Part shown: in pieces, positions 3,581-29,986 of the stretch | Position numbering within the stretch: the first letter of the stretch is position 1 | Layout of the letters: each line of letters starts with the position of its first letter | DNA from: Stygiolobus caldivivus | GTDB taxonomy: Archaea > Thermoproteota > Thermoprotei_A > Sulfolobales > Sulfolobaceae | Direction: 5' to 3' | Length of the DNA stretch: 64,000 bases | Assembly: GCF_019704315.1 (NCBI RefSeq) | Contig: NZ_AP024597.1 | Span: forward strand, 1,612,001-1,676,000 | The notes under the pieces: model-generated | Seen by the model: only the letters and a program-made list of their open reading frames with translations | What the model was told of the DNA's origin: nothing | Database searches by the model: none | Made by a program: the position numbers and the translations under genes

Positions 3581-4784
3581 TGTAGAGAGGCATAAACTCG
3601 AGAAGATACTGAGTAACGTAATGGACAGGTTAAAAGGGTATGAAGCTGAGGTAGAAGGGTCATTTAGAAAAGGGACATGGCTCAAGGGAGATACTGACTT
3701 AGACGTTTTTGTCTTCTTCCCAAAAGAGGTAGGTAAGGAATACTTAAAGGAAATGGCTATAAAGGAACTAGTATCGCGTTTTTCCGACTACAATTACACT
3801 ATTGCGTATGCGGAACACCCTTACTTAATGCTCGACGTAGAGGGAGTCGAAGTCGATATAGTCCCAGCTCTCAAAGTCCTGAGCGGTAGTGAAGCCGTTA
3901 CTGCGGCTGACAGGACTCCTTTCCATACGAGGTTTGTGACCCAACACCTCGATGAAAAAGGGAAAGACGAAGTGAGGTTATTAAAAAGGTTCTTAAAGGG
4001 TATAGGGGCTTACGGGGCAGAGATCAAAGTCCAGGGCTTTTCAGGTTATGTCAGTGAGCTCTTGATAATCCATTACGAGACTTTTAAGAACACTCTTGCA
4101 GAAGCTTCTAAATGGGTACCGCCGGTAAAGGTGTACTTCACGGAGCCCGCTAGGGAGTTTACAGAACCCCTCCAGATACCAGACCCGGTAGACCCTAGGA
4201 GGAACGCAGCCTCAGCCGTATCCATGGAAAAATTGGGTCTGTTTTCATTAGCATCAAGGTATTACTTGAAAGAACCATCTATGGAGTTCTTTTTCCCCAA
4301 GGAACCGCACTACGATAAAATAAAGGGGGACATACTACTCGTAAACGTAATATTAGAGGAAAATGTGGTAGAAGATATCTTATGGGGGCAGGTCTGGAGG
4401 AACGTAGATAAAATAAGGAATATACTTACTGAAAGGGGCTTTAGAGTGATCGATATCAGTGCGTGGGGGAACAATGAGAAACTGACTATTGCTATACAGC
4501 TGGAGAGTAAAGATATCGGTAAATATTACCTCAATATTGGCCCTTACTTTTATCAGTGGGAGAGCATAGACAACTTTGTCAGAAAAAACGAGAACATCTG
4601 GATAGGTAGGGACGGCAGGCTTTACTCGATTAAGGAAAGAAAAGAGACTGATGTAACAGAAATAGTAAAGTCAAACTTATCTTTTAAGCATAAGTTCAAG
4701 CTAGAATTAGAATGGGTTAAAGAGGTGAAGGGAGACCCATGCCTGATGCGTTTCCTGAGAAAGTCTCCTCCTTGGTTAAAGTAA
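3540..4784 (+). CDS. cca: Archaeal CCA-adding tRNA nucleotidyltransferase
   Basis: Class I CCA enzyme that adds or repairs the 3' CCA of tRNA; the tRNA gene in this window has no encoded CCA. The polymerase signature GSFRKGTWLKGDTDLD is at residues 40-55 with the metal-binding aspartates, and the third carboxylate is in VEVDIVPAL near residue 100. The length of 414 aa fits the archaeal class. The start is TTG 3540, with GGAG at 3527-3530 nine bases upstream. It overlaps thpR by 41 nt and the next gene by 46 nt. Confidence 0.95.
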   Translation: MIEEEVLKRIKPDDVERHKLEKILSNVMDRLKGYEAEVEGSFRKGTWLKGDTDLDVFVFFPKEVGKEYLKEMAIKELVSRFSDYNYTIAYAEHPYLMLDVEGVEVDIVPALKVLSGSEAVTAADRTPFHTRFVTQHLDEKGKDEVRLLKRFLKGIGAYGAEIKVQGFSGYVSELLIIHYETFKNTLAEASKWVPPVKVYFTEPAREFTEPLQIPDPVDPRRNAASAVSMEKLGLFSLASRYYLKEPSMEFFFPKEPHYDKIKGDILLVNVILEENVVEDILWGQVWRNVDKIRNILTERGFRVIDISAWGNNEKLTIAIQLESKDIGKYYLNIGPYFYQWESIDNFVRKNENIWIGRDGRLYSIKERKETDVTEIVKSNLSFKHKFKLELEWVKEVKGDPCLMRFLRKSPPWLK

Positions 4785-20707: not shown

Positions 20708-21140
20708 GGCGTAAAAATAAATTAATTAAGGTATTACACTACTAGATTAAGTAAGTGTGCGAATTGGTCTTTGCTGATAAATGATGACTGCACGTCAGGG
20801 CGAAACACTATACTAACGCGTTATAGTAGAGTCCAGCTTTGAACATAAATAGTAGTTATTCTTAATAACTTCTAGTTACTCAGCCCCATCAATTCCCCTC
20901 ACCAGTGGATAGGAGTACTGCGAGTCCTAAGGGGCAAGCTGGTCATGATAGAGAGGTTATAATAGGAATATAGCGTCAGCTTATTTAGTAGCTATGAGAA
21001 GGCTAGGAGGATTGAAAATAACTAAAAGTTACATAAGCGTAAGGTAGACTACACTAAAGAAAGGACATCTGCTGTTACTTACATTAAGTTAAAACTACAC
21101 TACAGATATAAAGAAGGGTCTAAGTCTTATTAATTAACCC
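20708..21140. other. Gene-free stretch before the riboswitch
   Basis: No frame of useful length and no recognised RNA. On the plus strand SPINSPHQWIGVLRVLRGKL can be read at about 20881-20940, but it is bounded by stops and looks like a fragment at most. A C-box-like ATGATGA at 20781 has no partner D box. Confidence 0.3.
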
Positions 21141-21147
21141 TTTTTAA
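21141..21147 (+). promoter_or_regulatory. TATA box of the fluoride-riboswitch/Ehr operon
   Basis: TTTTTAA at 21141-21147, preceded by a purine-poor BRE region. It predicts transcription starting near 21170, so the mRNA would have a leader of about 100 nt. That is unusual for Sulfolobales, where most mRNAs are leaderless, and it is just long enough to hold the aptamer. Confidence 0.6.
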
Positions 21148-21178
21148 CTACTTAACATATTAACCAGTGCTGATTTGT

Positions 21179-21255
21179 GAGGCGGGGTATGGCGTCACCC
21201 TGTGGGCTCATGCCCCGAACCGCCTCCTAACATTGGGGGCTGATGACGCCTACTT
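21179..21255 (+). promoter_or_regulatory. Fluoride riboswitch (crcB RNA) aptamer
   Basis: The core matches the crcB RNA consensus. P1 is CGGGG (21183-21187) with CCCCG (21213-21217). The P1 loop carries TATGGCGTC (21188-21196). GAACC (21217-21221) is the conserved joining strand. P2 is GCCTCC (21222-21227) with GGGGGC (21235-21240). It ends with the hallmark CTGATGACGCCTAC (21240-21253). The pseudoknot GGCGTC (21191-21196) with GACGCC (21245-21250) forms 6 bp. A small extra hairpin CCC-TGT-GGG (21198-21206) enlarges the P1 loop. GAGGCGG (21179-21185) can instead pair with CCGCCTC (21220-21226), which breaks P1 and P2 and gives an obvious ligand-free fold. Confidence 0.92.
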
Positions 21256-21281
21256 CTCTGAAAGGTTGGAAGTATGGCGTC
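21245..21281 (+). promoter_or_regulatory. Start-codon-sequestering hairpin (expression platform)
   Basis: GACGCC TACTT (21245-21255) pairs with AAGTA (21270-21274), then, after bulged T21275, GGCGTC (21276-21281): 11 bp. The hairpin includes the ATG at 21274-21276 and loops out the purine-rich AAAGGTTGG. The same GACGCC is the aptamer's pseudoknot strand, so aptamer and hairpin exclude each other. Confidence 0.75.
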
Positions 21282-22236
21282 GGATGAGGTCTACATAATT
21301 GAAGAGACGTTAGTCCAAGTACTTTCGGTTATACTACTATCACCACTTTATCAAGGTATATATGAAAAGGCTGTAGCGAAAGTACAAGGTAGAAAAGGGC
21401 AGAGTATATTCCAGCCTTACTATGATATCAAAAAACTGTTGGCGAAAGAAGTATTAGTACCTACTACGAGCTCTGATATGTTTATTTACTCCCCTTATAT
21501 CGTGTTCTCTATTTACCTGACGATTTCCTTCGTAATACCGGTAGTCTATCCTGAGCCGGTACTGTTTACTCCTACTGTAGACTTTTTAGGCGGAGCCTTG
21601 TTATTTTCCCTTGCGGCTTTTATAAAGGTATTAGCTTCAATGGAAAGCGGTAGTAACTTTGTCGCACTATCCGCTAGCCGTATCTTGTCTTTTACCTTCC
21701 TATCAGAAGCTACGTTGATCACGGTATTTTTCGGAGTAGCGATTATCACTGGTACAAATAACCCGTACGTGACTTTGTCCTACCTCACCGAAAGCACAGC
21801 CCATTACTTAAGCCTTACTCACATATTCATTTCTATCTCTTTCTTTATGCTATGGCTCTTTGAGACGGGGAAATTACCCGTAGAGAGCTCAGGGCTCAGT
21901 GAACTCGGTATGATAGATGACGGACTACTCTACGAATACAGCGGTAAATTACTAGCCCTTTTAAAATGGGGGTCTTACCTAAAGCAGTACCTCTTGGGGT
22001 CAGTATTACTCAACGTCTTTATTTTTCCTTGGTTTATGGAGACTGGGCCCTTAGGTGCTATTGAGGATGTAGGGGTCATGTTTGCGAAGTGGTTGTTATT
22101 AATACTGATAGCGGTAATAATAAACACTACATTGGCTAAGTTAAGGCTATTCAAAGTCCAGGACTTTTTGGCTGTGGCCTTTTTACTCTCTTTCTTCTCC
22201 TTAATTTTAACGGTATTACCGGGTGGAGCTCCATGA
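21274..22236 (+). CDS. hyfC: Ehr/hydrogenase-4-like membrane subunit, NuoH/HyfC homolog
   Basis: 320 aa, eight or nine membrane helices. It is the NuoH-type subunit that links the peripheral arm to the ion-pumping membrane arm. The diagnostic cytoplasmic loop KVQGRKGQSIFQPYYDIKKL (about 37-56) is intact, and a later loop has ETGKLPVESSGLSELGMID, equivalent to the NuoH acidic loop. First gene of a six-gene operon; the next start overlaps by 4 nt. The start ATG lies within the riboswitch's sequestering hairpin, so expression should depend on fluoride. Confidence 0.88.
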   Translation: MASDEVYIIEETLVQVLSVILLSPLYQGIYEKAVAKVQGRKGQSIFQPYYDIKKLLAKEVLVPTTSSDMFIYSPYIVFSIYLTISFVIPVVYPEPVLFTPTVDFLGGALLFSLAAFIKVLASMESGSNFVALSASRILSFTFLSEATLITVFFGVAIITGTNNPYVTLSYLTESTAHYLSLTHIFISISFFMLWLFETGKLPVESSGLSELGMIDDGLLYEYSGKLLALLKWGSYLKQYLLGSVLLNVFIFPWFMETGPLGAIEDVGVMFAKWLLLILIAVIINTTLAKLRLFKVQDFLAVAFLLSFFSLILTVLPGGAP

Positions 22237-22859
22237 AAGAAATTATAGAACTAATTAACTCAATCATAGTCATCACCGCTTTCTATATCCAAGGACAAGC
22301 ATACTTTAAACCCCAAATATACGCCCAAGCCGTCCAGTCGGGGCTAATATCAGTCCTTTCCTTTTATCTAGCGTTCACAACAGGGGTTTTAGATTATGTC
22401 TTTCTAGGTATTGCAGTTATAGTTATAAGGGCTACACTAGTCACGTTCTTCTTACTAAAGGGGTTAAAGAAAGTCCACGGTTATCGGGAAAATACCCGGG
22501 GGGTGGCCTCAGAACTGATAATCGATTTAGCCTTCTTTTTAACGGCTTTAGTGATAATATATTACTTCGTCATTTCTAGGTACTTTCTAGGTGTAAAAGA
22601 CTATTATAGTCTCGTCTTTTCATTTATGTTATTCTTCCAAGGTCTCTTCTTGATATTAAGCAGAAAGAGTACTATCTCACAGATCTTAGGATATATCGAA
22701 GAAGAAAATTCTTTAGTCTTATTCGGTATATTTTTGATACCAATTCCCTTCTTGGTAGAAGCTAGTATATTTCTGGATGTATTAGGCTTAGTGCTTGTGT
22801 CTTCTGTCCTTACTCGGGTCAAGGGGGAACACAAAGTAATTGAAGAACTAAGGGGGTGA
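22233..22859 (+). CDS. hyfE: HyfE-like membrane subunit
   Basis: 208 aa, about six membrane helices, no cofactor motifs. Its position between HyfC and HyfF homologs and its size match HyfE of hydrogenase-4 and the N-terminal, NuoK-like part of formate hydrogenlyase membrane proteins. A helical segment AFTTGVLDYVFLGIAVIVIR shows the charged residues typical of the NuoK-like region. Overlaps hyfC by 4 nt; it ends 6 nt before hyfF with GGGGGTGAG as an evident ribosome-binding site for that gene. Confidence 0.75.
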   Translation: MKEIIELINSIIVITAFYIQGQAYFKPQIYAQAVQSGLISVLSFYLAFTTGVLDYVFLGIAVIVIRATLVTFFLLKGLKKVHGYRENTRGVASELIIDLAFFLTALVIIYYFVISRYFLGVKDYYSLVFSFMLFFQGLFLILSRKSTISQILGYIEEENSLVLFGIFLIPIPFLVEASIFLDVLGLVLVSSVLTRVKGEHKVIEELRG

Positions 22860-22865
22860 GTGTAA

Positions 22866-24212
22866 ATGGAGGACGGCCAATTACTCTTAACCCTTTTAAT
22901 CCTTATACCCTCGCTCGCAAATATAACATCATTTAACATTAAAGCCCTGAAGAACTCTACGATGATAAGCTCTACTATCTCACTATTACTTTCAATACTG
23001 CTCCTGATCGAAAAGGGTTCATTACTGCCTATAGTAGGTCTATTTTATGTCACAAGCTTTACTGTCTTTTTCATTTTAATGATTAACTCGATATACTTAT
23101 TATCATCCGTGTATTCACTAGAATATATTGAAGATAAGGACGTTAACGGACTACTAAACTCTAAGACTTACTACGTTTTGTTAAACTTTTTTGTATCTTC
23201 TATGTTATTCACGGTCTCCGTTAATAACTTCGGCTTTATGTGGATAGGTGTTGAGCTGACGACTATAACCTCGGCACTGTTGATAACTACCGAATATTCA
23301 GAAGTCTCCTTGGAAGCTACATGGAGGTATATAATAATAGTGTCAGCCGGGGTCACTATAGCCTTATTTTCAATCATCCTAATTTACTACCAGTACCATA
23401 CGCTTACAGTATCAACTCTCCTGAGCTTACATCAGCCCAGTAAACTAATTGAGCTGGCAGTGGGGCTGGCGTTAATAGGCTTTGGGACTAAGGTAGGAGT
23501 ATTCCCCATGTATACTTGGTTACCTGATGCCCATAGCGAAGCACCCTCTCCCGTTAGTGCGTTATTCTCCGGCGTACTATTACCGTCCGTCTTATACGTC
23601 TTATACAGAGTGTACCAATTAGACCCCCTAGCTAACCTATACCTAGCCTTCTCAGTACTTTCAATCTTGACCGCTTCGGTTATTTTAACTTATCAATGGA
23701 ATATAAAGAGGCTCTTTGCGTACTCTACGATAGAAAATATGAACCTTGCATTGATCGGGCTAACTATAGGTCAGCCCGCCGGTGCTTTAATCCTGTTACT
23801 CTCTCACGCCTTCGGTAAAGCCTCCGCCTTCTATTCCTCCGGCGTCCTCGTAAAGGTGTTAAAGGAGAAGAGAATAGACGAATTTAAAGGAGTTAATAGG
23901 CTAAAACTGGCGTCATCTTCTCTCCTACTTGCTTCATTAGCAGTGACTGGGACCCCGCCTTTCGGGACTTTCGTAGGAGAGTTCTTAATATTACGGACGT
24001 TGTTAGAAAGAGGGCTTATATTACCGCTTATAGTACTTCTAATAGCTATCCCGTTAGAATTTATTTCAATAAATTACCACGTGAATAAGGTAATATTCTC
24101 CGGTGGGGAGAAGGGAGCGGTCAGAGAACCGCCTATAATGTCATCTATTTCGCTAATCTCATCGATCATATCGCTAGTAATAGGGGTATTTTACCTCCTG
24201 ACGGTGATGTGA
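22866..24212 (+). CDS. hyfF: HyfF-like antiporter-type subunit (NuoM/MrpD family)
   Basis: 448 aa, about 13 helices. Channel residues needed for ion translocation are present: Glu130 in WIGVELTTITS and Lys208 in GFGTKVGVFPMYTWLPDAHS, followed by EAPSPVSALFSGVLLP, the invariant helix 7-8 block. It should move H+ or Na+. It lies upstream of the catalytic subunit in the order C-E-F-G-I-B. This is one of two antiporter-like subunits in the operon. Confidence 0.9.
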   Translation: MEDGQLLLTLLILIPSLANITSFNIKALKNSTMISSTISLLLSILLLIEKGSLLPIVGLFYVTSFTVFFILMINSIYLLSSVYSLEYIEDKDVNGLLNSKTYYVLLNFFVSSMLFTVSVNNFGFMWIGVELTTITSALLITTEYSEVSLEATWRYIIIVSAGVTIALFSIILIYYQYHTLTVSTLLSLHQPSKLIELAVGLALIGFGTKVGVFPMYTWLPDAHSEAPSPVSALFSGVLLPSVLYVLYRVYQLDPLANLYLAFSVLSILTASVILTYQWNIKRLFAYSTIENMNLALIGLTIGQPAGALILLLSHAFGKASAFYSSGVLVKVLKEKRIDEFKGVNRLKLASSSLLLASLAVTGTPPFGTFVGEFLILRTLLERGLILPLIVLLIAIPLEFISINYHVNKVIFSGGEKGAVREPPIMSSISLISSIISLVIGVFYLLTVM

Positions 24213-25384
24213 AAATGAGGAGGTATAAGTGGAGCGAGAAAGGGAAAGGGAGGAGGATAGGGAGATTAGGTAAGTACTGTCTTTATGAAAACGAAATCAC
24301 CGAAGAGGTATGCGATATCGAAAGACCTAAGAGGGGAGACGCTTACGGTAGCTTTAGGTTCGTTTACGGTCCGTCGTCAGGGGGGTTACTGGAGAGCATA
24401 AAGTTTGACATAATTACCGATGGAGAGAGAGTACTGTATATCGACGCGACCCCATTTAAGGAGAGGGTTATTAAAGTAAAGGGACTAACTGTCGGAGACG
24501 CCATAATGAGGATAGAAAGGATAAATGCGCCTTTTTCGGCATCACATACATTATCTTTTCTTATGTCTGTGGAAGACGCTTTAGATATTGACCCTGATTA
24601 CCAAGTACAGCTCAGGAGGATCTTAGAGATGGAACTGGAGAGGATAAGGAACCACCTCTTTGTAATCTCGAGGCTTACTGAGATGGCTTCACTGTCCGTA
24701 CCCACCTATGACCTCCTCTCACTAGTCGAGGATATGAACAGGCTTATAGGGAACGCATGTGGACATAGGTATTTCTTCGGAGTCAACGAAGTGAATGCCG
24801 TAAATTGTGACTTTGAAAGTGTAGGAGGACGTGTTGAAAAGGTACAAAATAAGTTTAAGGAGATCTTTGAAGGGCTACTGGAGAGTAGGATTTTCATAGA
24901 TAGGCTCCAGTCCAACGGAAAACTGAAAGACGAGATGTCGATAGGACCGGCAGCGAGGGCTTCAGGTTTCGCCTACGACGCAAGAGTCGATAGTGGCTAT
25001 CTGCCCTATAAGGACTTCGGCTTCGAGGTGATTACGAGAGAAGAGGGAGACGCTTTCGGGAGGTTCCTGGTCAGGGGTTATGAGGTCTTAGAGTCTTCCA
25101 GACTTATCCAAGACATAGTCCACTCTTTACGGAACCCTGTTGGAGTCTATAAGTTACGAGGAGGTGGAGAAGGGTTAGCCCGTGTCGAAAGCCCCTCTGG
25201 TGACCTCGCATATTACGTAAAAGTAAATGATGGTGTCATTAACGAGGTATTTTCCCTTTACCCGTCTTATGTAAACCTGAATCTTTTTCTTAAAAGTGTA
25301 ACCGGGACTATCTTTACAGACTTCCCTTTTAACTGGGAAAGTTTCGGGATTTGGGTGAGTGAGGTCGGGGTGAGACTGTGTTGA
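24209..25384 (+). CDS. hyfG: Hydrogenase-like large subunit without NiFe ligands (HyfG/NuoD homolog)
   Basis: 391 aa from GTG 24209; ATG 24215 is the more likely start, because GGTGA (24203-24207) stands at ribosome-binding distance. The fold follows NuoD/HyfG (RLTEMASLSVPTYDLLSLVED, GPAARASGF, RGGGEGLARVESPSGD). The two CxxC motifs that bind NiFe are absent: the first position reads RINAPFSASH (104-113) and the C-terminal one GTIFTDFPFNWESF (about 368-381). The only cysteines lie elsewhere. It therefore cannot be a NiFe hydrogenase; like NuoD it probably forms a substrate or quinone pocket near the last iron-sulfur cluster. Confidence 0.88.
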   Translation: MKMRRYKWSEKGKGRRIGRLGKYCLYENEITEEVCDIERPKRGDAYGSFRFVYGPSSGGLLESIKFDIITDGERVLYIDATPFKERVIKVKGLTVGDAIMRIERINAPFSASHTLSFLMSVEDALDIDPDYQVQLRRILEMELERIRNHLFVISRLTEMASLSVPTYDLLSLVEDMNRLIGNACGHRYFFGVNEVNAVNCDFESVGGRVEKVQNKFKEIFEGLLESRIFIDRLQSNGKLKDEMSIGPAARASGFAYDARVDSGYLPYKDFGFEVITREEGDAFGRFLVRGYEVLESSRLIQDIVHSLRNPVGVYKLRGGGEGLARVESPSGDLAYYVKVNDGVINEVFSLYPSYVNLNLFLKSVTGTIFTDFPFNWESFGIWVSEVGVRLC

Positions 25385-25986
25385 AAAACTGGTGGTTTAT
25401 CCGTGGGCTAAAAAGGGGAGTAATAACTGAAGACAAACCTAGAGAAATAGCACCTTGGAGTACTGAAATCTCAGGGTCTGGTGAAGTGAATTGTCCTACA
25501 GGCGCAATAAGAGACGGAAAGTGGGAGCCCGGTAAGTGTATATTTTGTAGAAAGTGCTACCCCAATTATAGACCGACTTTAAACCCTTATATCTCGACAT
25601 TACATAAAAGTGAAAAAACGTTTAGGCGCTCTTTCTACTTGTATGTAGTAGACGCTGGGACATGTGGAGGGTGCAATTTAGAGTTGAAGCTTATTGCATC
25701 CCCCCAATATGACATGACTAGGTTTGGGATTTTTTTCACCAATACGCCGAGGCATGCAGACGCATTAGTCCTCACGGGAGTCTTAACAGAGAGAATGAAT
25801 GATGTGATCAAGGAAGCATATGAAGCGATGCCCAGTCCTAAAGTAGTTATCCTATTGGGAGCTTGCGCGATTTCTGGAGGGATAATAGGAAAGGGTATAC
25901 CGAGTGATGCGAACATAATAGTCCCAGGATGTCCACCTAACCCGTTTACAATTTTAGATTCCCTCAGGAAGGTGAAGGGCGGATGA
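25378..25986 (+). CDS. hyfI: HyfI/NuoB-like small subunit with fused ferredoxin half-domain
   Basis: 202 aa, GTG 25378 or TTG 25381. Residues 35-65 are a ferredoxin-like segment with CPTGA (Cys39) and CIFCRKCYP (Cys54, 57, 60), enough for one 4Fe-4S cluster; this is a remnant HyfH fused to HyfI. From residue 90 the NuoB fold carries CGGC (96-99), GACAISGG (Cys163) and PGCPP (Cys185), the full ligand set of the terminal N2-type cluster. So the electron path is complete although the NiFe site of the partner is gone. It overlaps hyfG by 7 nt and hyfB by 4 nt. Confidence 0.88.
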   Translation: MLKNWWFIRGLKRGVITEDKPREIAPWSTEISGSGEVNCPTGAIRDGKWEPGKCIFCRKCYPNYRPTLNPYISTLHKSEKTFRRSFYLYVVDAGTCGGCNLELKLIASPQYDMTRFGIFFTNTPRHADALVLTGVLTERMNDVIKEAYEAMPSPKVVILLGACAISGGIIGKGIPSDANIIVPGCPPNPFTILDSLRKVKGG

Positions 25987-27731
25987 ATGTACCTCTATGG
26001 TTAGTTCTAGTCTTAGCGTATTTGCCTCCTTTACTATCCGTTGTAAGAAGTAAACTGGGATACCTATCTATAACGTTGCTCTCCATAACTCTTGCTTCTC
26101 TATCTATTATTGAACCAAATGGAGTGTTCAGTTATTTTTTACTCCTTTCTTCTATTGTGTGGCTTATTATCTCTACTTTTTCTCTATTCTCACCTTGTGA
26201 AAGACTGTTAGAGGCTCTATTATCCTTATCTATCTCAGGGATGGTAACGATACTTGAGAGCACAAACTATTTGGAGTTTTTAGTTGGCTGGGAGGTAATG
26301 TCAATACCCATATACGCGTATATTGCGATAAAGGGCAACTATAAGTCGGCTTTCGTGTTTATCGCGTTTAGCGAAATTAGTACGGTACTCCTCCTCTTCT
26401 CGTTCATAATAGCGAGCACACAGAGCATGTATTTCGCACCCCTTAGTTCCCCCCTACCTCTGATCATAGGCAGTATAGGGTTTATTGTCAAAATGGGAGT
26501 GACCCCTTTTATGGTAGCTGAATGGTTGCCAATATCACAAGGTAATACCCCTGGTAACATGTCTGCTTTAATTAGCTCTACAGTGACCTTAATGGGAGTT
26601 TATGGGATAGTAAGGATGTCCTCCCTGACCGGCTTTATTCCGATAGGTTTTCCCTTAGCACTTATGATCTTAGGGGCTGTTACGACGTTTTTTGGTGCAC
26701 TATATGCTTATGTTTCTGAGAGTATTAAGGGGGCTTTGGCATTTAGCACTGTTGAAAATAACGGTGCTATGTTGAGCGAACTGGGTATCTTTATGGTCTC
26801 TAAATCTCTGGGTATGCTCGAACTGGAATATCTATCACTTTACGGTGTAATTCTATACTCGTTTGCACATTCCATAGCTAAAACAGGCTTATTTTTGACC
26901 TCTTCTCTACAAGGTTCCACTGCAATTTCTCTAGCAAAGAAGATCAGGGACAAGCTGTATTCAATAGCTCTAGTGCTGATTTCAACCTCTATGTCTGGAC
27001 TTCTGCCGAACCTAGGTGGAGTATCTTCTTGGTTATTACTAGAATTACTCTTTATATCTGCTTACATCCTCCATAACTCCTCATCCATCTTTTTCATCAT
27101 ATCAGGCTTTACCATAGCCATGGGGGAAGGTTTCGCTACAGCGTTTATGATAAAATATGTATCATACTTAAGCGTATTTAAGAGGGACGAGGAAAGAGTT
27201 TACAAGCCCCTTTCCGTCCCCATATTTACATCCGGTCTTTTAGTATTTTTACTAGGGTTCACCCTGCCATATGTCCTCTATCCCTATAAGACTTCTCTGC
27301 TCTCTTTGGGGATGATTTTTAACAGCGTCCTAATCACGTGTTATAACGGACACACATTTGGGGGCATTTCACCCTTATATATCGTGTTAATGGTAGCTAC
27401 GCTTTCATCAGCGACATATATCGCTTTCGGGAGACCGAAGACCAGAAAAGTAAGGACGTGGAATAACGGAGTTGTAGACCAAGAGGAGTACACGGCATAT
27501 GCCCTTTCAAACAACGTGAGGTTGATGTTAAGGAAGATCTTACGACATGAAAGTGTTTATATTAATACAGATGCTACAGACGTAGTGTGGAAGGAAATGA
27601 TAAGAATAGGGATTATGATAAGAAAAATAGGTAAGCTAGTAGGTAGAAATTTAGTTAATAGTTCTATCCAATGGTATATTATCTACTTAATTATAACGGT
27701 ACTCCTAATAGTGGTCATTATTACGTTATAG
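25983..27731 (+). CDS. hyfB: HyfB-like antiporter-type subunit (NuoL family)
   Basis: 582 aa, about 14 helices. Ion-channel residues Glu104 (LVGWEVMSIP) and Lys170 (FIVKMGVTPF) are present. The normal EAPSPVSALMSG block is altered to GNTPGNMSALISS, unlike HyfF in the same operon. The C-terminal 100 residues form a cytoplasmic stretch and a last helix (WYIIYLIITVLLIVVIITL) as in NuoL/HyfB. Last gene of the operon; about 210 nt follow before the convergent MarR gene. Confidence 0.85.
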   Translation: MNVPLWLVLVLAYLPPLLSVVRSKLGYLSITLLSITLASLSIIEPNGVFSYFLLLSSIVWLIISTFSLFSPCERLLEALLSLSISGMVTILESTNYLEFLVGWEVMSIPIYAYIAIKGNYKSAFVFIAFSEISTVLLLFSFIIASTQSMYFAPLSSPLPLIIGSIGFIVKMGVTPFMVAEWLPISQGNTPGNMSALISSTVTLMGVYGIVRMSSLTGFIPIGFPLALMILGAVTTFFGALYAYVSESIKGALAFSTVENNGAMLSELGIFMVSKSLGMLELEYLSLYGVILYSFAHSIAKTGLFLTSSLQGSTAISLAKKIRDKLYSIALVLISTSMSGLLPNLGGVSSWLLLELLFISAYILHNSSSIFFIISGFTIAMGEGFATAFMIKYVSYLSVFKRDEERVYKPLSVPIFTSGLLVFLLGFTLPYVLYPYKTSLLSLGMIFNSVLITCYNGHTFGGISPLYIVLMVATLSSATYIAFGRPKTRKVRTWNNGVVDQEEYTAYALSNNVRLMLRKILRHESVYINTDATDVVWKEMIRIGIMIRKIGKLVGRNLVNSSIQWYIIYLIITVLLIVVIITL

Positions 27732-27942: not shown

Positions 27943-28389
27943 CTATTCAGTTTCTCCTTTTACTTTAACTTGGCTGTCTCTTTTACACTCCTCTTCCATT
28001 ACCACTTTAAAGAACTCAATTACGTTGTCTTTTTCCTTAACTTTATCAAGTAATGAGTTGATTAATTCCTTATATCTAGCCCTGACTTGTTCTAATATAC
28101 TCTCCCCGCTCTCTGTAATCCTTACTTTTACGACCCTCCTGTCCTCGGCGTCTCTTTCCCTGCTCACATATCCAAGCCTGTCTAACTTGTCCAGCACTTC
28201 TACCATGGTAGACTTATTTACGTCTACAAGTTTAGCCAACGATGTAACGTTCTTTTCTCCCTGAGTCAAGTAGTAAAGGACTTGGACTTCGGTGTAAGTA
28301 AGCCCGAGTTTTTCAGCTTCCATCTGTAGGAGCTTTTTCAGCTTTTTGTGCCCTTTCAACACTATTTCCCATTTCTCCAACTCTAACAC
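27943..28389 (-). CDS. MarR-family transcription regulator
   Basis: 148 aa winged-helix dimer. LGLTYTEVQVLYYLTQGEKN leads into the recognition part VDVNKSTMVEVLDKLDRLGY, then the beta wing (ERDAEDRRVVKVRITESG), the classic MarR order. The gene lies inside the end of the efflux-pump gene: the start at 28389 overlaps it by 77 nt; an internal ATG at 28326 would shorten that overlap to 14 nt but remove helix 1. By context it should sense a toxic ligand and control the pump. Confidence 0.88.
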   Translation of the reverse strand: MLELEKWEIVLKGHKKLKKLLQMEAEKLGLTYTEVQVLYYLTQGEKNVTSLAKLVDVNKSTMVEVLDKLDRLGYVSRERDAEDRRVVKVRITESGESILEQVRARYKELINSLLDKVKEKDNVIEFFKVVMEEECKRDSQVKVKGETE

Positions 28390-29986
28390 CTTTTCTTGCT
28401 AATGATAATATTCCAGACACTACTAATAACACAGCCGATATATTTAGCATTAACCTAAATCCAGACATAAAGGAGGGTGCTATTGCTGAGACAAAGAACG
28501 TAGGCGTATCTATATGGGACGCGATACTGGCCGGTAACGAGGACGCTATACCCGCTAAAGGGTCATAACCCAGTAGAGCTGAAAATATCGCCACTGCTGC
28601 AGGCAAATTGAGGCTTAAATGCACACCGTATGATGCAAGTGCTTTATCAATAGATGAGTTCAATGTGTATGACATACCCGTTATTACTACGCTAAAATAG
28701 AGAGCTACACTTAACGCAGAAGCTGAGTTTTGTAAAGACGCTCTCATACCTGAAGCAGCACCTCTTTTCTGTATGGGGACTGAAGCCATTATATCAGCCA
28801 TGTTTGGCGAAGAAAATAAGCCCATCCCGGCACCCATTATAAAGGAGATAGCGAAGAACTGCCATAACTGGAAGTCATAAGGTAGTAATGAGAGTAGGAA
28901 AAAGCCTAATGCGCTCACGAAAAGGCCTAATGTAGTAAGTACTTTTGAACCATATTTGTCTGATAGTATTCCACTCACCGGACCTAAGGCTGCAAAACCT
29001 AACATGTTAGGGATTAAATAGAGCCCGGCCCAGAATGGAGTCTGAGAGTAAGGGATCCCATGGAGGGGTAGCCATATCCCTTGGAGTAGCACTAGCATCA
29101 TAAGTAATATCCCTTGTCTTGCCATTGAGGCGATAAAGTTGGAAAAGTTAGCGACCGAAAAGTCTCTGATCTTAAACAGAGAGAGGTCAAACATTGGGTT
29201 CTTTACTTTTCTTTCTACGGCAATAAATGCACCTAAGATTACTAGTGACAAAATAATCCCGGAAATTACATAGGGACTACCCCATCCTAGTTGTTGAGAC
29301 CCATAAGGCAAAAGCCCGTATGTAACTGAGATTAGGAGTAGTGTAATACCCACTGCAAATAATACGTTCCCTATTACGTCCAAGGTCTGTTTTACGGGTT
29401 TTTGTATGTCTCTCAAGGACTTAATACTCCAGACAGTACCTACCAAGCCTACCACAAAATCTAAGAGAAAAATATATCTCCAGTCGATTACAGATAGCAC
29501 TCCCCCTATAATAAGCCCCGCTACTCCTCCTACTAAACCCGCTACTTGGTTTAGTCCCAGTGCTTTCCCGAGTTCGTTTTTGGGGAAATAGTCAGTTAGT
29601 ACTGCTGCACTATTTACCATCAGCAAGCCTCCCCCTACACCTTGGAATAGCCTAAGTATTATCATCTCTAGGACAGCTGTATTTCCGTAACCTGTTATAG
29701 CTGAGATTAGACCTGAGGATATCGCAAAGACTAAGAACCCTATAGAGTAAAGTTTAGCCCTTCCCTTTAAGTCTGAGATCCTCCCAAATGTTACTACTAG
29801 TGAGGAAGTGACTACCATATAACCTAAGATCAACCAGATTAAGTAACCGAGTGCATCAGGAGAGGTAGGGTTAAACTTTAGGCTGTTGAATATTTCTGGT
29901 AGGGCTATTATTATCATGTTGTAATTAGCGAATGCAATGAAAATTGCAATACTGGTATTTGATAATGCTATCCACTTACTTTCCAT
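28313..29986 (-). CDS. MFS drug-efflux transporter, DHA2 type
   Basis: 557 aa, 14 helices. Motif A is VTFGRISDLKGRAK; LRLFQGVGGGLLMVNSAA is the helix 4 block and GLNQVAGLVGGVAGLIIGG carries the antiporter motif C. The gene shares organisation with EmrB/QacA pumps and is a distant relative of the 477-aa pump at 16797-18230. Its stop lies within the MarR gene. It is divergent from the GT4 gene, with about 190 nt between. Confidence 0.88.
   Translation of the reverse strand: MESKWIALSNTSIAIFIAFANYNMIIIALPEIFNSLKFNPTSPDALGYLIWLILGYMVVTSSLVVTFGRISDLKGRAKLYSIGFLVFAISSGLISAITGYGNTAVLEMIILRLFQGVGGGLLMVNSAAVLTDYFPKNELGKALGLNQVAGLVGGVAGLIIGGVLSVIDWRYIFLLDFVVGLVGTVWSIKSLRDIQKPVKQTLDVIGNVLFAVGITLLLISVTYGLLPYGSQQLGWGSPYVISGIILSLVILGAFIAVERKVKNPMFDLSLFKIRDFSVANFSNFIASMARQGILLMMLVLLQGIWLPLHGIPYSQTPFWAGLYLIPNMLGFAALGPVSGILSDKYGSKVLTTLGLFVSALGFFLLSLLPYDFQLWQFFAISFIMGAGMGLFSSPNMADIMASVPIQKRGAASGMRASLQNSASALSVALYFSVVITGMSYTLNSSIDKALASYGVHLSLNLPAAVAIFSALLGYDPLAGIASSLPASIASHIDTPTFFVSAIAPSFMSGFRLMLNISAVLLVVSGILSLARKGVRVGEMGNSVERAQKAEKAPTDGS

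Follow-up and report, generated by a model that had tools for sequence, protein, structure and literature searches.

A predicted fluoride riboswitch precedes an operon for an Ehr-type, complex-I-like membrane complex in Sulfolobaceae and other archaea

We found a predicted fluoride riboswitch directly upstream of a six-gene operon for an Ehr-type (energy-converting hydrogenase-related) complex in the window, that is, in the whole stretch of 64,000 nucleotides of the Stygiolobus caldivivus genome analysed here. We consider it fairly probable that this RNA is a translational fluoride-ON riboswitch, that it controls the Ehr pump, and that the pump serves acidophiles as their fluoride defence instead of the Fluc channel.

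Results

The leader of the operon contains a fluoride riboswitch aptamer

The window was searched with cmscan, and we obtained a full-length match to RF01734 with E = 2.1e-9. A search of the complete genome (2.96 Mb) returned the same single copy, at 21176-21259. The initial annotation had proposed a fluoride riboswitch at this place on the basis of the crcB features, among them P1, P2, the GAACC joining strand and the pseudoknot. We checked the coordinates letter by letter and recovered every one of them (Table 1), and the Infernal score lay above the curated gathering score of Rfam (45.5 versus 34 bits). The end that it had given, 21255, missed the predicted expression platform, which runs to 21281. 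The RNA shares with RF01734 all conserved elements and the position in the 5' UTR. It differs from the usual fluoride riboswitch in its target, an Ehr operon, and in an additional hairpin between P1 and AACC. This hairpin (GGGC/GCCC in the window) is one insertion relative to the Rfam consensus, and 16 of 18 aligned relatives have a hairpin there.

P1, P2 and the pseudoknot are backed by covariation. In the aptamer helices 95% of the alignment cells were paired, compared with 36-54% in slid controls, and both sides changed in 12 of 17 pairs. The pseudoknot was 99.1% paired over 18 sequences, with changes on both sides in 4 of 6 pairs. Since 20 further genomes of Sulfolobaceae have the aptamer at this position, and since its helices and pseudoknot covary, we regard it as more than a product of chance. 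A chance match to RF01734 was also ruled out by the E-value together with the conservation. The identity proposed earlier is thus supported by score, covariation and recurrence, as a prediction from sequence: the aptamer is a genuine member of the fluoride riboswitch class and would be expected to bind fluoride.

The candidate TATA box, if correctly assigned, would probably put the start of transcription just 5' of P1. A simple scan placed A/T-rich TATA-like boxes 5' of the aptamer in almost every relative, with variable spacing. The same scan picked another candidate in the window, at approximately 21130.

Table 1. Coordinates of the predicted riboswitch and of the operon genes in the window
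Feature	Position	Strand	Basis
Predicted fluoride riboswitch aptamer (RF01734, crcB motif)	21176-21259	+	45.5 bits, gathering score 34
P1 stem, GGGT 21185-21188 with ACCC 21197-21200	21185-21200	+	Rfam alignment, coordinate check, covariation
Pseudoknot 5' strand GGCGTC	21191-21196	+	partner 21245-21250
Extra hairpin GGGC/GCCC between P1 and AACC	21204-21215	+	insertion relative to Rfam consensus
Conserved AACC joining strand	21218-21221	+	Rfam alignment
P2 stem, GCCTCC 21222-21227 with GGGGGC 21235-21240	21222-21240	+	Rfam alignment, covariation, coordinate check
Pseudoknot 3' strand GACGCC, also part of the expression platform	21245-21250	+	alternative partners 21191-21196 or 21276-21281
CTGATGACGCCTAC	21240-21253	+	conserved aptamer feature, letters checked
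Probable archaeal TATA box (CCTTTTTAA)	21139-21147	+	read by eye
Predicted expression platform, GACGCC-TACTTC 21245-21256 with GAAGTA 21269-21274 and GGCGTC 21276-21281	21245-21281	+	MFE fold
Ribosome-binding-like sequence (AAGGTTGG), within or beside the loop of the platform	21262-21269	+	sequence
NuoH/HyfC-like membrane subunit, 320 aa	21274-22236	+	PF00146, 4.3e-32
HyfE-like membrane subunit, 208 aa	22233-22859	+	NCBIfam PRK11492, 2.6e-10, below cut-off
HyfF-like antiporter/pump subunit, 448 aa	22866-24212	+	PRK06458.1-2, 613 bits, cut-off 437
NuoD/HyfG-like subunit without [NiFe] cysteines, 391 aa	24209-25384	+	PF00346
NuoB/HyfI-like Fe-S subunit, 202 aa, with an extra N-terminal ferredoxin-like four-cysteine stretch	25378-25986	+	PF01058
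HyfB-like antiporter/pump subunit, 582 aa	25983-27731	+	PRK06459, 630 bits, cut-off 460

The predicted expression platform shares a strand with the pseudoknot

In the minimum free energy fold of the UTR, the platform hairpin closes over the ribosome-binding region and the start codon, and the free leader adopts this fold (-55.7 kcal/mol, z = -3.4). The motif GGTGA stands at the ribosome-binding-like position in most relatives. The start region (21272) repeats exactly the GTATGGCGTC of the aptamer (21187), and therefore two partners compete for one strand. At the level of sequence, the two pairings of the 3' pseudoknot strand are mutually exclusive.

We detected the platform hairpin in 33 of 33 leaders of the first set, where it takes up 2-6 bases of the pseudoknot. 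Matched arms in this set reached -16.2 kcal/mol, shuffled arms -13.2 kcal/mol, and none of 20000 shuffles was as good (p = 5e-5 when each clade was represented once). The effect was weaker in an independent set, in which 31 of 20000 shuffles were as good, and the hairpin itself is weaker in part of the Thermoplasmata. The downstream arm tracks the sequence of the pseudoknot, with CACC/GGTG in Marsarchaeota and CTTC/GAAG in a Micrarchaeon.

The shared strand, the matching of the arms and the covariation of the aptamer argue for a translational fluoride-ON switch as the best reading, with both fluoride binding and the direction of switching as predictions. When fluoride is absent, the 3' pseudoknot strand would pair with the ribosome-binding and start region and translation would be blocked. 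Mg-bound fluoride would lock the same strand into the pseudoknot of the aptamer, which would free the start site. The pseudoknot strand of the B. cereus fluoride riboswitch is likewise shared with the expression platform (PMC11077080). The predicted platform in the window would mask the start site, unlike the terminator platform of bacteria. The same paper cites an archaeal fluoride riboswitch that acts on translation and was put to use in a hyperthermophile (PMC11077080).

The operon encodes an Ehr-type complex

The riboswitch is followed directly by six genes on the same strand (21274-27731), whose first ATG lies 15 bases past the end of the RF01734 match. Adjacent genes overlap at four of the five junctions, and a gap of six bases was found at the fifth. 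The initial annotation had described them as a complex-I-like operon of the Ehr type with no fluoride channel, and our assignments agree with it.

The NuoD-like subunit aligns to MbhL, the large subunit of the membrane-bound hydrogenase, and to the 49 kDa subunit of complex I. Its AlphaFold model (pLDDT 89.6) was closest in fold to the large subunit of E. coli FHL and to complex I 49k. In the window the sequence ERINAPFSASH stands in place of the N-terminal CxxC, and the C-terminal CxxC is missing; no CxxC was found at either [NiFe] site among 77 relatives. Two groups of four cysteines are conserved in the NuoB-like subunit and correspond to two Fe-S cluster sites. The lysines and glutamates characteristic of proton pumps are conserved in both antiporter-like subunits, as E130, K209 and K318 in the HyfF-like subunit (conserved in 76 relatives) and as E104, K170 and K300 in the HyfB-like subunit. 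There was no formate dehydrogenase gene among the six genes.

NuoH, NuoB and NuoD together with antiporter-like subunits in one operon, and a large subunit lacking the CxxC ligands of [NiFe] throughout the relatives, are the marks of Ehr. Those of formate hydrogenlyase or hydrogenase-4, [NiFe] cysteines and a formate dehydrogenase partner, are missing. Since the [NiFe] cysteines were lost while the Fe-S and pump residues stayed intact, we classify the complex, by its predicted subunits, as Ehr-type and not as a hydrogenase or formate hydrogenlyase.

Riboswitch and operon occur together

Among 31 Sulfolobaceae genomes, 21 carry both riboswitch and operon (one operon being a relic) and 10 carry neither. 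Each of the 21 has one fluoride riboswitch, always directly 5' of the Ehr operon or its relic. HyfF orthologues (E < 1e-90) were detected in 20 of these 21; in the remaining genome only a decayed fragment is left, and its riboswitch is the weakest. The split between both and neither is seen inside several genera, and therefore riboswitch and operon were probably gained or lost jointly, more than once. Gene order differs between clades by circular permutation, so that the operon begins either with nuoH or with hyfF, and in both arrangements the riboswitch stands at the front. When we extended the comparison to the class (229 genomes), all 21 Ehr genomes, called at > 549 bits with the next best at 144, had RF01734, and 7 other genomes had it elsewhere or before a relic.

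In the genome with the relic, a riboswitch of 35.4 bits precedes a hyfF fragment with stops (L021, G023:C1:254873-255260). The reading frame of nuoH seems to be broken in two loci of genus g7 (L039 and L040, genomes G012 and G014). In G014 one base is missing just past the start codon in comparison with relatives, and L040 contains runs of N. These breaks appear to be either decay or sequencing error.

To look outside the family, we scanned GTDB genomes once, using the NuoD-like alignment. The scan relied on exact peptide patterns, by which close relatives are favoured, and returned archaea only (Sulfolobales, Marsarchaeota, Micrarchaeota, Thaumarchaeota and Thermoplasmata). RF01734 was located directly 5' of the operon in four of these loci (L055, L056, L057 and L062), was in place and below the cut-off in another four (L054, L058, L059 and L060), and the same aptamer motif was recognised by eye in L061, L065, L066 and L067. 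We also sampled the Thermoplasmata phylum and observed the Ehr complex in 44 of 390 genomes. There, 41 operons had a readable 5' end and 19 of them had RF01734 in place above the cut-off. A custom covariance model (R1) raised this count to 39 of 41; it was trained on Ehr leaders from 18 other loci, and its low-scoring matches lean on position.

Over all clades, a fluoride aptamer was found 5' of 71 of the 73 operons with a readable 5' end (approximately 97%), of which 43 pass the Rfam cut-off and the others, sub-threshold, found with the custom model or by eye, are individually weaker. The 71 comprise 20 from Sulfolobaceae, one from Marsarchaeota, one from Thaumarchaeota, two from Micrarchaeota, and 8 plus 39 of 41 from Thermoplasmata. 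The fluoride aptamer was not found with RF01734 or the custom model 5' of the Thermoplasmata operons L139 and L150. These two share a different conserved leader upstream of nuoH, of about 60 bases (GTATTTGAT...CCATTATT.TGAAA.TATCTGGTA).

The Ehr genomes tested lack the Fluc channel

CrcB/Fluc was absent from all 31 Sulfolobaceae genomes, that of the window included, and from every one of 11 further Ehr genomes. Among the Thermoplasmatota sampled, 0 of 44 genomes with Ehr had the gene, compared with 164 of 346 without Ehr (Fisher p = 6e-12, weakened by kinship, as the genomes are not independent). Sulfolobaceae that lack Ehr likewise have no Fluc, and the exclusion may therefore reflect acidophile lineage or habitat and not replacement.

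The single CLC of the genome was closer to ClcA (1e-30) than to CLC-F (4e-10) and has the GREGP motif of the chloride type. We rejected CLC as a hidden fluoride exporter, as the motif was of the chloride type wherever it was found and CLC is present with or without Ehr, independently of it. Another, unrecognised fluoride exporter could be expressed constitutively.

Discussion

We think that Ehr is most likely a fluoride-induced, redox-driven ion pump that would protect acidophiles from HF. HF, with a pKa of about 3.2, passes freely into the cells of acidophiles and dissociates there into H+ and F-. Acidophiles hold a positive-outside membrane potential weakly or reversed. It is this potential on which Fluc depends (PMC11139923). 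A membrane pump related to complex I and hydrogenase-4, with the hydrogenase site lost, could pass electrons through its Fe-S clusters to an acceptor and pump ions outwards, most likely H+. Such pumping would offset the load of protons and fluoride that HF brings in at low pH and would repair the proton gradient, a possibility already raised in the initial annotation, and Ehr would be the fluoride defence of acidophiles in place of the Fluc channel. What we infer in this scheme is that fluoride is bound, in which direction the switch acts, which ion is pumped, where the electrons come from and go to, and how the cell benefits.

Fluoride might instead be extruded by Ehr itself, as F- or F-/H+, through an antiporter-like subunit or a redox pump, which would make it a third kind of exporter replacing Fluc and CLC-F. 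The near-obligate pairing with the riboswitch (71/73) would suit such a function, as would the lack of Fluc in all Ehr genomes tested, its exclusivity with Ehr in Thermoplasmatota, the Cl-/H+ type of the genome's own CLC, and the fact that exporters are the usual first targets of fluoride riboswitches (PMC11139923). However, the conserved lysine and glutamate residues are those of proton pumps, and the pKa of HF implies re-entry at low pH, so that export of plain F- would be futile. To our knowledge there is no fluoride site in the superfamily to which Ehr belongs, and we find fluoride export by Ehr unlikely. A redox bypass or reductase that is needed when fluoride blocks central enzymes such as enolase and pyrophosphatase, with ion pumping incidental, is quite improbable in our estimate. 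Metabolic genes do occur among fluoride regulons (PMC11139923), the NuoB-like subunit has its two cluster sites and the NuoD-like site does not resemble that of a hydrogenase; but every clade retains both pump subunits, with their conserved pump residues, and we saw no partner gene specific for a substrate within the operon.

We give scarcely any credence to formate oxidation coupled to H2 under fluoride control, that is, to a true formate hydrogenlyase. The annotation and the name used in the literature suggest it and the fold of the large-subunit model resembles it, but the missing NiFe ligands in all 77 relatives contradict it, and the operon lacks a formate dehydrogenase gene; we rejected it on the ligands. 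It is also very improbable that the leader has merely been inherited as a relic, or that it responds to another ligand than fluoride. The aptamers of Thermoplasmata do deviate from the consensus in the core, and one Sulfolobaceae genome keeps its riboswitch before a decayed operon. Against this, the window aptamer has a canonical core (45.5 bits), its pseudoknot is kept through compensatory changes, and it is gained or lost jointly with the operon. The reading that we prefer remains the ion pump induced by fluoride.

The literature link between crcB RNAs and 'formate hydrogenlyase' genes, pointed out in the initial annotation, was confirmed (PMC2864571, PMC11139923). The association was mentioned shortly in 2010, and 'formate hydrogen lyase' has been placed among the commonest targets of fluoride riboswitches and explained as formate oxidation (PMC11139923). 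Judged by the predicted subunits, that explanation does not fit this operon. The operon shares membrane-arm subunits and the fold of the large subunit with E. coli formate hydrogenlyase/hydrogenase-4 (PDB 7z0s), and differs from it by the lack of NiFe ligands and formate dehydrogenase. Published Ehr complexes are relatives of group 4 hydrogenases and complex I without CxxC ligands, to which no function has been assigned (PMC10284858, PMC7304191). The window operon resembles them in the lack of CxxC, and the archaeal branch described here differs by its tie to the fluoride riboswitch. Clusters of the same kind of genes, called 'putative hydrogenase 4' or formate hydrogen lyase, were reported from Thermoplasmatales of acid mine drainage; their Ni-binding motifs are missing, and 'some other function' was suggested, with apparently no regulatory link made to fluoride (PMC3750248). 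They are likely identical with Thermoplasmata loci of our set.

The riboswitch class, the mention of 'formate hydrogen lyase' and Ehr as complexes of unassigned function were already known. As far as the open literature goes, four points are apparently new: the near-obligate link across archaeal phyla, the fact that the linked genes have lost the hydrogenase ligands, the mutual exclusion of Ehr and Fluc, and the platform at the start site together with its covariation. The archaeal 'formate hydrogenlyase' genes studied here are, with very few exceptions, coupled to fluoride sensing, and their genomes are without Fluc. This suggests that the archaeal Ehr complex acts in the defence against fluoride, and thus these relatives of complex I gain a job that can be tested. 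It would offer an explanation of how acidophiles withstand HF under conditions in which a passive channel that relies on the membrane potential is expected to perform badly. It may also concern bioleaching, in which fluoride is a known problem (PMC12831704). Were Ehr itself to export fluoride, it would be an energy-coupled third kind of transporter beside Fluc and CLC-F, switched by its own riboswitch.

Variant aptamers and neighbouring genes

GC-rich leaders of Thermoplasmata carry a variant aptamer, mostly below the Rfam cut-off (L058:4651-4720, L059:4758-4832, L060:149-221), which we also observed upstream of nuoH in L061, L065, L066 and L067. It has GGAGGCGUC for GAUGGCGUC, together with CAAUG or CGAUG for UGAUG. 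The changes from A to G and from U to C resemble a compensatory swap at the long-range A6-U38 pair, in the numbering of the T. petrophila structure.

Other fluoride riboswitches precede genes of MutS-like ATPases with MutS domain V (L055:13846-13909, L057:353-417, L023, L024 and L025), and in Marsarchaeota and Thaumarchaeota these form tandem pairs beside the Ehr operon. Close to its Ehr operon, L061 has a second fluoride riboswitch (3708-3770, reverse strand; 41.6 bits), which precedes the gene of a NUDIX hydrolase. In the window, a gene for an EmrB/QacA-like MFS efflux protein is convergent to the operon (28313-29986, reverse strand), and MFS genes also lie near the Ehr operons of L054, L055 and L057.
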